From assembly GCF_000423465.1 (NCBI RefSeq), contig NZ_KE384020.1:799671-863670 (forward strand): 64,000 nt of DNA, given 5' to 3'. Shown in pieces: positions 3,361 through 62,458 of this stretch; the stretch's first letter is position 1; the number at the start of each line of letters is the position of its first letter. The notes under the pieces are model-generated. The model saw nothing but the letters and a program-made list of their open reading frames with translations, was not told the origin of the DNA and searched no databases. The translations under genes and the position numbers were made by a program. The stretch comes from Propionicicella superfundia DSM 22317. GTDB taxonomy: Bacteria > Actinomycetota > Actinomycetes > Propionibacteriales > Propionibacteriaceae.

Positions 3361-3609
3361 ATGGATTGGCGCCATCAGGCAGCCTGCCTCAACGAGGACC
3401 CGGAACTGTTCTTCCCCGTCGGTAACACGGGTCCGGCCTTGATGCAGATCGCCGAGGCCAAGAAGGTGTGCCGCACCTGCCCGGTCCGCGAACCCTGCCT
3501 GCAATGGGCTCTGGACGCCGGCCAGGATCATGGCGTCTGGGGTGGCATGAGCGAGGATGAGCGCCGTGCGCTGCGGCGGCGCGCCGCGAGGTCTCGGGTG
3601 CGTGCCTGA
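3361..3609 (+). CDS. whiB1: WhiB1-type iron-sulfur transcription factor
   Basis: This 82-residue Wbl protein carries cysteines 9, 37, 40 and 46, the spacing of mycobacterial WhiB1, expected to hold a [4Fe-4S] cluster. The G[VI]WGG turn appears as GVWGGMSEDERRALRRR, and the basic C-terminus is the DNA-binding part. WhiB1 proteins bind the primary sigma factor and are NO-sensitive; those statements come from the family. The start MDWRHQAACLNEDPELFFP is nearly identical to WhiB1 N-termini, which fixes the ATG at 3361. Longer upstream reading in this frame is not conserved. An inverted repeat lies just upstream (3263-3293). Confidence 0.92.
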   Translation: MDWRHQAACLNEDPELFFPVGNTGPALMQIAEAKKVCRTCPVREPCLQWALDAGQDHGVWGGMSEDERRALRRRAARSRVRA

Positions 3610-60444: not shown

Positions 60445-60481
60445 CCCGCGACCCGGCTTGCCCCCCGCGGACAATGGACCC

Positions 60482-61813
60482 ATGAGCGATCCGCTGCCCC
60501 CCGAGCAGGAACGTCTGTCCCGCACCGCTCTCGGCCGAGGGGCGCGGCTGCTGCAGATCCCACTCGGTGAAGCCGGCCGACGGGCGGTCGGCTGGGGGCG
60601 CAGACTGACCGGCGCCGATCCCGACGAGGTCGCCGCCGACAACGCCGAGCGCATGGCCCGGCAACTGTTCCAGGTGCTGGGTGAGCTCAAGGGCGGCGCC
60701 ATGAAGGTCGGGCAGGTGCTGTCGCTCATGGAGGCCGCCCTGCCGGAGGAACACGCCCAGCCCATGCGGGAGCATCTCCGCAAACTCCAGGACTCGGCGC
60801 CCCCGATGCCGGCCTCCAAGGTGCAGGGCGTCCTGCGCTCGGAACTCGGCCCGTCGTGGGGTTCGCTGTTCACCGAGTTCTCGATGCGACCCGCGGCAGC
60901 GGCGTCGATCGGTCAGGTCCACCGCGCCGTGTGGGCCGAGACCCAGACCCCGGTGGCCGTGAAGATCCAGTACCCGGGAGCCGAAGAGGCGCTGCTGGCC
61001 GACCTGGCGGCGCTGCGGAGGATGGCCTCGACGGTCGCCCCGCTCGCCGGCGGGGTCGACGTCGCCGCCCTGGCGAGAGAGGTCTCCGAACGCGTCTCCG
61101 AAGAGGTCGACTACACCCTCGAGGCGGACGCCCAGGAGCGCGTCGCCGCCGCCTTCGCCGAGCACCCCGAGTTCCTCATCCCTCGCGTGCGGCGAGCGAC
61201 GCGACGCGTCATCGTGAGCGACTGGGTCGACGGGGACCGGCTCGGCGCCATCGCCGACCGTCCCCCCGCCGAGCGCAATCGCATCGGCCTGTCCTACGTC
61301 CGGTTCCTGTTCGCCGGGCCCAAGCTCGCAGGCATCCTCCACGCAGACCCACACCCCGGCAACTACCTGGTGTGCCCCGACGGGCGCCTCGCCGTTCTGG
61401 ACTTCGGCCTGGTCGCGCGTGTGCCTGACGGCCTTCCACCCGCCATGGGGCGCCTCGTCTCGCTCGCCCGGGACGGAAGGGCCGACGAGGTGGCGACCGG
61501 GCTCGCCGCCGAGGGCTTCGTCACCGCGGATCTCGCCCCGGAGGAACTGCTGGACTATCTCGCCCCGTTCTTCGAGCCGGCAGCCGTCCCCGAGTTCCAC
61601 TTCACGCGTCAGTGGATGCAGGATCAGTTCGCGCGGGTACGCGACATCGACGGCAGCGACGGGATCGCCCTGAAGCTCACCGTCCCCCCCGTGTACGCCC
61701 TGATCTACCGGGTCTGGATGGGCGGCATCGCCGTCCTGGCCCAGCTCGACGTCAGCGCGCGCTTCGCCGACGTCCTCCAGGAGTTCCTGCCCGGGTGGCG
61801 CCCGGCGCCCTGA
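60482..61813 (+). CDS. ABC1/AarF/UbiB-family atypical kinase
   Basis: The 443-residue protein has the UbiB KxGQ motif (GAMKVGQVLSLME), the Ala-rich P-loop (AAASIGQVHRAVW), Lys in AVKIQYPG, the catalytic HADPHPGN and the DFG-like LDFGLVARV. Family members bind nucleotide and act in lipid or quinone metabolism; the mycobacterial homologue Rv3197 is in the WhiB7 regulon and affects macrolide tolerance. It converges with whiB7. I chose the ATG at 60482 over the in-frame upstream codon at 60458, which has no ribosome-binding site. Confidence 0.87.
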   Translation: MSDPLPPEQERLSRTALGRGARLLQIPLGEAGRRAVGWGRRLTGADPDEVAADNAERMARQLFQVLGELKGGAMKVGQVLSLMEAALPEEHAQPMREHLRKLQDSAPPMPASKVQGVLRSELGPSWGSLFTEFSMRPAAAASIGQVHRAVWAETQTPVAVKIQYPGAEEALLADLAALRRMASTVAPLAGGVDVAALAREVSERVSEEVDYTLEADAQERVAAAFAEHPEFLIPRVRRATRRVIVSDWVDGDRLGAIADRPPAERNRIGLSYVRFLFAGPKLAGILHADPHPGNYLVCPDGRLAVLDFGLVARVPDGLPPAMGRLVSLARDGRADEVATGLAAEGFVTADLAPEELLDYLAPFFEPAAVPEFHFTRQWMQDQFARVRDIDGSDGIALKLTVPPVYALIYRVWMGGIAVLAQLDVSARFADVLQEFLPGWRPAP

Positions 61814-61832: not shown

Positions 61833-62114
61833 TCACGCGGCGCTCTGCGCGGCGACGTCGTCCTTGCGGGGACGTCCCCGCGGCCGCTTCCGGGGCACGA
61901 CCACGCCGGCCACGACCAGTTCTCCGCCCCACACGCCGTGCGGCTCACGGCGCGCGAGCGCACCCGCCAGGCAGGCGTCCTTCAACGCGCAGGTGACGCA
62001 GACATGCTTGGCGCGCTCGACGTCCAGCGGCAGTTCCGCGAAGAAGAGATCGGGGTCCTCGTCGTGGCACGGAAGGTGGACCGCCTGACCGGGCACGAGC
62101 AGTTCGGTCGTCAT
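61833..62114 (-). CDS. whiB7: WhiB7-type antibiotic-stress activator
   Basis: The 93-residue Wbl protein has the four cluster Cys (Cys16 in LPCHDEDPDLFF, then VCVTCALKDAC), the GVWGG turn and the WhiB7-specific AT-hook (PRGRPRKDD) near the C-terminus. WhiB7 binds the primary sigma factor and activates promoters with an AT-rich stretch next to the -35, inducing intrinsic resistance genes when translation is blocked. A long leader precedes it (62115-62458). AGGAGA 6 nt before the ATG at 62114 can be hidden by GTGTCTCC upstream. It lies between the ABC1 kinase and uvrD2 as in mycobacteria. Confidence 0.92.
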   Translation of the reverse strand: MTTELLVPGQAVHLPCHDEDPDLFFAELPLDVERAKHVCVTCALKDACLAGALARREPHGVWGGELVVAGVVVPRKRPRGRPRKDDVAAQSAA

Positions 62115-62116
62115 GT

Positions 62117-62162
62117 GTGTCTCCTGGTGTTGTTCGGTGAGGGTCTCGACCCCGGGAGACAC
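62117..62162 (-). promoter_or_regulatory. Hairpin that can sequester the whiB7 Shine-Dalgarno
   Basis: On the minus strand GTGTCTCC (62162-62155) is perfectly complementary to GGAGACAC (62124-62117), which contains the whiB7 ribosome-binding site just before the ATG. The 30-nt loop holds a small GGGTC/GACCC stem. Formation would block whiB7 translation. Confidence 0.65.
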
Positions 62163-62165
62163 GAA

Positions 62166-62199
62166 GGCCGCGTTCCCGGGTGGGTCCGAGAGCGCGGCC
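62166..62199 (-). promoter_or_regulatory. GC-rich leader hairpin upstream of whiB7
   Basis: GGCCGCG (62199-62193) pairs with CGCGGCC (62172-62166) on the minus strand, with a 20-nt loop. It lies right after the two-codon ORF and could be a pause, attenuator or antiterminator structure. No T-tract follows. Confidence 0.5.
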
Positions 62200-62217
62200 G
62201 GAGGATTCCGTCAGGAA

Positions 62218-62226
62218 CTACCTCAT
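62218..62226 (-). CDS. Two-codon leader minigene (Met-Arg-stop)
   Basis: ATG AGG TAG is preceded by GGGAGG with a 6-nt spacer, an excellent ribosome-binding site for a coding unit of two codons. Its ATG overlaps the stop of the 43-codon leader ORF (ATGA). Such minigenes can stall ribosomes or cause peptidyl-tRNA drop-off; a role as drug sensor is inferred. The reading is exact, but translation is unproven. Confidence 0.6.
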   Translation of the reverse strand: MR

Positions 62227-62354
62227 GGCGTTCCTCCCTGGCATCCGCGCCTCACGGACGTGCCGCCGCGCTCGTCATAACGCGGACGGCTGAAGACGGT
62301 CTTGTCCGCGGACAGGAGCGAGTGCGCGGCCTGCCTGATGATCGACTCGTGCAT
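62223..62354 (-). CDS. 43-codon leader ORF upstream of whiB7
   Basis: The ORF starts MHESIIRQAAHSLLSADK and ends RRGCQGGTP, followed by TGA overlapping the minigene ATG. GGAGGAGGGG lies about 7 nt before its ATG, one of the best Shine-Dalgarno sequences in the window. It begins 56 nt downstream of the proposed -10 box, so ribosomes would load at once after transcription. I recognise no family; its likely role is to couple ribosome progress to whiB7 expression. Confidence 0.65.
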   Translation of the reverse strand: MHESIIRQAAHSLLSADKTVFSRPRYDERGGTSVRRGCQGGTP

Positions 62355-62409
62355 GTCTCGCCCCTCCTCCCTCACGACGCGGCGCTGCCCCAGCGGCAAC
62401 GACCCGCCC

Positions 62410-62447
62410 AGTCTCGCAGCACCGGTCTGCGGCGTGCAACCGGTTTT
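62410..62447 (-). promoter_or_regulatory. WhiB7-type autoregulated promoter
   Basis: On the minus strand AAAA (62447-62444), TTGCAC (-35, 62439-62434) and GAGACT (-10-like, 62415-62410) are in the order of WhiB7-activated promoters, in which an AT-rich stretch lies next to the -35. The -10 is weak, as expected for an activator-dependent promoter; spacing is 18 bp. Confidence 0.5.
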
Positions 62448-62458
62448 CCGGGCGGCCG

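Follow-up and report, generated by a model that had tools for sequence, protein, structure and literature searches.

A likely ribosome-sensing attenuator with a probable Shine-Dalgarno lock in the whiB7 leader of Propionicicella superfundia

The leader of whiB7 in Propionicicella superfundia is best read as a known type of attenuator, the ribosome-sensing whiB7/wblC switch, to which a probable translational lock has been added, a reading to which we assign a probability of roughly 0.7. It lies on the minus strand of the 64,000-nucleotide stretch of DNA analysed here (the window). Across actinobacteria, WhiB7 activates intrinsic resistance to antibiotics, with its leader acting as the sensor. 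Lee, Lee and Roe (Mol Microbiol 117:179, 2022) reportedly described an attenuator for whiB7/wblC that works through an upstream open reading frame (uORF). Attenuation of these genes by a uORF is established (PMC11550727, PMC10727445, PMC4128351, PMC13236596, PMC13393426), and the window shares with that attenuator a uORF with a strong Shine-Dalgarno sequence (SD), an intrinsic terminator right after it, an antiterminator between uORF and terminator, and the placement of these elements 5' of whiB7. In contrast to the known attenuator, the window adds a helix in which the terminator U-tract would sequester the whiB7 SD, and a two-codon ORF lying over the uORF stop. Neither a U-tract helix with the SD nor a minigene at the uORF stop was found described for whiB7 within the limited literature searched, and the two-level layout is probably a lineage-specific addition of an SD lock to the known whiB7 attenuator.

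The whiB7 gene (61833..62114, minus strand) encodes 93 amino acids with a WhiB domain (PF02467, 1.3e-14) and a C-terminal AT hook (PF02178, 0.0039), and it is the best WhiB7 match within its own genome. Its ATG at 62114 is separated by 2 nt from the SD GGAGACAC (62117..62124, minus strand). A second WhiB-like gene with 39% identity to WhiB7 is located toward the opposite end of the window (3382-3603, plus strand). The gene convergent with whiB7 encodes an ABC1-kinase protein (60458-61813, plus strand) whose best NCBIfam match is the macrolide-binding ATPase MABP-1, at 400 bits and under the 800-bit cut-off. The probable whiB7 promoter (62410..62439, minus strand) consists of the -35 element TTGCAC at 62439-62434, an 18-nt spacer and the -10 element GAGACT at 62415-62410, with an AAAA box (62447-62444, minus strand) just 5' of the -35. 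The same layout of an AT-rich box, TTGC(A/G)N, 16-19 nt and TANNNT precedes the uORF in 37 of 46 leaders of the family; the -10 of the window is degenerate relative to TANNNT, and a generic sigma-70 scan called no promoter at its whiB7 leader.

For the comparison, the DNA 5' of each whiB7 was taken from 198 genomes of the window's family, an order-wide sample and a number of named genomes, among which the window's genus is represented by one species. At an E-value of 1e-18, whiB7 was found in 48 of the 198 family genomes, with no match in the remaining 150; a few family genomes (G129, G143 and G151) carry two copies. The resulting 188 upstream regions included 178 with a strong-SD uORF, and 175 leaders were left once duplicates had been dropped, 46 from the family (the window, six from genus g7 and 39 others) and 129 from outside it.

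The attenuator uORF of the window (62223..62354, minus strand) comprises 43 codons and ends in TGA, and its SD GGAGGAGGGG at 62370-62361 forms a duplex of -15.6 kcal/mol with the anti-SD, which confirms the strong-SD ORF described in a first-pass annotation of the same DNA. The proposal made there that whiB7 is controlled through a uORF was also borne out by comparison: a strong-SD uORF ends shortly 5' of the terminator in 178 of 188 whiB7 upstream regions, and such uORFs are common to the 175 leaders compared. These leaders carry uORFs of 43 to more than 140 codons, and the peptides they encode vary. A tblastn search with the uORF peptide of the window returned nothing but itself above noise, ruling out a conserved uORF peptide, and Rfam gave no family at gathering score for the leader and nothing meaningful at E-values up to 1.

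Downstream of the uORF, the GC hairpin that had been noted earlier at 62166-62199 (minus strand) is present and far beyond chance, with a folding energy of -24.8 kcal/mol and a z-score of -4.4 versus shuffled sequences; the whole 3' leader of the window likewise folds better than shuffles (z -3.1). A matching hairpin is found 5' of 183 of the 188 whiB7 genes, strongly conserved in forms such as AGGCCGTGAATCCC...GGGATTCACGGCCT TTCGTGTTTCCC. Because this terminator is conserved across whiB7 leaders, we take the GC hairpin of the window to be the intrinsic terminator and GTGTCTCC (62155..62162, minus strand), which occupies the conserved U-tract position, to be its degenerate U-tract, with 5 T in 12. 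A generic terminator scan missed this terminator, its U-tract being weak by that count. The earlier description of the hairpin thus stands as far as its presence goes, but it had overlooked both the role of hairpin and U-tract as a terminator and the antiterminator formed with the uORF.

An antiterminator built from the 3' half of the uORF and the 5' arm of the terminator is supported by sequence complementarity. Its 5' strand (62232..62259, minus strand) covers uORF codons 32-41 and ends in GGGAGG, while its 3' strand (62184..62205, minus strand) consists of CCTCC and the terminator 5' arm. In the predicted fold, 62259-62232 pairs with 62205-62184, GGGAGG with CCTCC, as long as the ribosome has not passed about codon 28. 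In the family, the 3' end of the uORF is a closer match to the terminator 5' arm of its own leader than to those of other leaders (-21.1 vs. -19.9; 2 of 2000 permutations), as it does in the wider set (-26.3 vs. -23.4; 0 of 2000), although kinship among the leaders inflates these group tests. No excess of complementarity between the uORF 3' end and the terminator 3' arm was seen in the permutation test. For the window taken singly, the antiterminator is non-significant versus shuffles (p 0.12), and the support is at the level of the group.

Equilibrium folding with a ribosome footprint favoured the terminator at every position and was uninformative as a test of the attenuator; since the terminator always wins such folds, antitermination must be kinetic. 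This approach was replaced by cutting the RNA before the terminator 3' arm and folding it for each ribosome position. Under this treatment the 5' arm of the window is captured at about 0.9 with the ribosome at codons 0-28 (falling to 0.6 at codon 22) and at 0.1 or less from codon 36 through the stop. The family mean is 0.68 for a ribosome in mid-uORF versus 0.12 at the stop, compared to 0.54 for shuffled sequence.

The comparison also brings out a small hairpin at the end of the uORF. In the window, this stop-codon hairpin (AGGAACGCC-AUGA-GGUAGUUCCU; 62213..62235, minus strand; -11.7 kcal/mol) encloses the uORF stop together with the minigene, and 2 of 200 shuffles are equally good. All leaders (175/175; mean z -2.1) have the uORF stop codon in or within such a hairpin, with or without a minigene. 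The hairpin may explain the recurrence of certain C-terminal uORF residues (e.g., Pro-Pro-Val/Ile), which would then reflect RNA pairing and not selection on the peptide.

The two-codon minigene ATG-AGG-TAG (62218..62226, minus strand) overlaps the TGA of the uORF and has its own SD, whose duplex with the anti-SD amounts to -10.9 kcal/mol, as had been pointed out before. In 19 of 175 leaders an ATG in another frame lies no more than 10 nt from the uORF stop, and in L116, L121, L127 and L175 an ATG at or adjoining the stop opens a frame that crosses the terminator and overlaps the whiB7 start codon. A two-codon ORF at this site, however, was found only in the window (ATGAGGTAG) and in the 6/6 genus g7 genomes with whiB7 (ATGGCATGA or ATGGGCTGA); the other 39 family leaders analysed lack it, as do 129/129 leaders outside the family. 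Shuffling of the window leader yields an overlapping two-codon ORF in about 0.5% of cases, corresponding to an expectation of 0.27 leaders in 175, and of the 387 gene 3' ends examined over 464 kb of the source genome, none opens one. The first-pass annotation was therefore right to call the arrangement uncommon, with the qualification that it was singled out post hoc.

These numbers bear on an explanation centred on the minigene, in which ribosomes finishing the uORF would reinitiate at the overlapping ATG, make Met-Arg and then pause or drop off, so that termination is favoured by a ribosome kept on the antiterminator strand or the RNA is stabilised. Its recurrence in the window and six g7 genomes against so low a chance expectation speaks for such a role, as do the two-codon minigenes known to regulate ler, txe and ycbK (PMC8708949). 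Nevertheless we regard this explanation as unlikely. The minigene is found neither in the remaining leaders of the family nor in any other family, its SD-like GGGAGG doubles as the end of the antiterminator arm that pairs with CCTCC, and its ATG sits in the loop of the stop-codon hairpin. The idea that a rare AGG codon traps the ribosome fails because AGG accounts for 8.1% of Arg codons here. Nor did the minigene hold up as a conserved sensor: it is confined to two lineages, and when relatives are compared it occurs in one of 40 family leaders outside g7 (that of the window itself) and in 0/129 outside the family. In the UvrD2 tree the kinship of the window with g7 is neither supported nor rejected (p-AU 0.243); a shared origin is thus compatible with the tree and the minigene may be a single event, whereas its presence in two lineages would be mildly surprising if these were independent. 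The minigene is real as a sequence but is not a conserved part of the attenuator, and its function is putative; most likely it is incidental to the stop-codon hairpin or at most prolongs the stay of the ribosome at the uORF stop.

The second addition in the window is the pairing between the U-tract and the whiB7 SD. As claimed earlier, GTGTCTCC (62162..62155) and GGAGACAC (62124..62117) are reverse complements of each other without a mismatch, and all eight positions pair in an 8-bp helix in the minimum free energy (MFE) fold, in which the SD is sequestered. With a 15-nt tail, 0.6% of shuffles give a duplex at least as good (p 0.006); with a 13-nt tail, 4% do. In genus g7, the pairing versus shuffled SDs gives p-values of 0.001-0.004 in five genomes and 0.018 in one. 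Clustering of the leaders at 66% identity merged everything and voided a cluster permutation, and a genus-level combination was used instead; over 13 lineages it yields a Fisher p of 0.0006, with a t-test p of 0.03 and a mean z of -1.0. Two adjacent pairs of the helix show compensatory changes on both strands when the window is set against g7 (U-A, C-G vs. C-G, U-A), and the changes in leaders L089 and L094 are wobble-compatible. Across ten aligned leaders, 96% of the cells of the helix pair compared with 43-55% when the strands are slid, these rows having been chosen post hoc. The pairing is strong only in the window genome and genus g7, partial in a few lineages and absent in several relatives; this, together with the post hoc choice of rows, makes the helix a lineage-limited feature. 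The arms that were expected to be conserved in relatives are compensated between the window and g7 but weak or absent elsewhere.

It is possible that the leader is a transcription attenuator only, and that the match between U-tract and SD is a by-product, devoid of any role, of a pyrimidine-rich tract facing a purine-rich SD. In keeping with this, the U-tract TTCGTGTTTCC is also seen in relatives with a non-pairing SD, the excess per lineage is as modest as the combined test indicates, and the fold of the mature leader after the terminator is ordinary versus shuffles (z -0.75). The two compensated pairs, the wobble-compatible changes and the low p-value of the window argue against it, and on the sequence evidence we consider a U-tract:SD translational lock probable in the window's lineage.

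How such a lock might open is suggested by an alternative hairpin (62150..62180, minus strand) in which the terminator 3' arm ACCCGGGAACGCGG pairs with CGTGTCTCCCGGGG over 12 bp (-22.4 kcal/mol), engaging the U-tract and the CCCGGG that follows it. This hairpin forms in the fold once the antiterminator is imposed, and the predicted unpaired fraction of the window SD rises from 0.0 in the repressed form to 0.54. In relatives folded with the terminator 5' arm removed, the release of the SD is mostly small or nil (mean 0.31 to 0.41). Within the family, the 3' arm and the tail are more complementary than under permutation (2 of 2000); leaders outside the family show no such excess. A different possible route to masking the SD is seen in Nocardioidaceae-like and Frankia leaders (L164, L170, L172, L188, L006 and L031), where a local hairpin within the last 30 nt before the gene carries the whiB7 SD in its loop (GTCAC-aaggag-GTGAC or GTGTC-ggaggt-GACAC).

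Simple translational coupling, in which ribosomes ending the uORF or minigene would scan on and reinitiate at whiB7 with no sensing of stress, appears very improbable for the window. Frames that begin at an ATG overlapping the uORF stop and reach the whiB7 start, as in L116, L121 and L127, would suit it; the window minigene, by contrast, ends 103 nt 5' of whiB7, beyond the terminator hairpin and the SD helix, in a layout that fits the attenuator.

Parts of this arrangement have counterparts in other leaders. In the vmlR leader of Bacillus subtilis, the terminator SL-3 is followed by SL-4, which sequesters the SD and is disrupted upon induction (PMC9226507). The order of uORF, anti-antiterminator, terminator and SD-sequestering hairpin is shared (PMC9226507), but vmlR is another gene in another phylum with other sequences and is without a minigene, whereas in the window the terminator U-tract itself is the anti-SD arm. 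Two-codon minigenes tune the next gene in LEE1 ler, axe-txe and ycbK (PMC8708949). They share with the window the make-up of a start codon followed by a single sense codon and a stop, placed in the leader with an SD of their own, yet they act on the translation or stability of the next gene, while the window minigene overlaps the stop of an attenuator uORF. The ermB leader encodes two leader peptides, ErmBL and ErmBL2 (ermBL + ermBL2; PMC8274638), and thus also has two ORFs preceding a gene that ribosome-targeting drugs induce; it differs in being a translational attenuator whose second ORF is longer and was shown to matter (PMC8274638).

Under the favoured reading, an attenuator with a probable lock, the WhiB7-type promoter at 62439-62410 would drive the leader and the 43-codon uORF would be translated. 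A ribosome at the uORF stop would cover the antiterminator strand 62259-62232, allowing the terminator 62199-62166 to form and RNA polymerase to stop, and in transcripts that escape termination the U-tract GTGTCTCC would mask the whiB7 SD. Antibiotics or amino-acid shortage, which we infer to be the signals, would stall the ribosome before about codon 28, whereupon the 3' half of the uORF could capture the terminator 5' arm, provided that the timing of ribosome and RNA polymerase is as supposed. Transcription would then go on, and the freed 3' arm may pair with the U-tract and CCCGGG, loosening the SD. The minigene and the strong U-tract:SD helix co-occur in the window and genus g7. A three-part switch could, for this family, join to the attenuator an anti-SD strand in the U-tract, freed by the 3' arm, and a ribosome-parking minigene that would hold the terminating ribosome at the uORF stop and secure both termination and SD masking, but we think this combination decidedly unlikely.

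Taken together, the constrained parts of the leader are the terminator, the antiterminator and the stop-codon hairpin, while the uORF peptide, the minigene and the SD lock are lineage-specific. If transcripts that read through the terminator are locked at the ribosome binding site, the control of whiB7 would be partly translational, and measurements at the RNA level would miss part of it.
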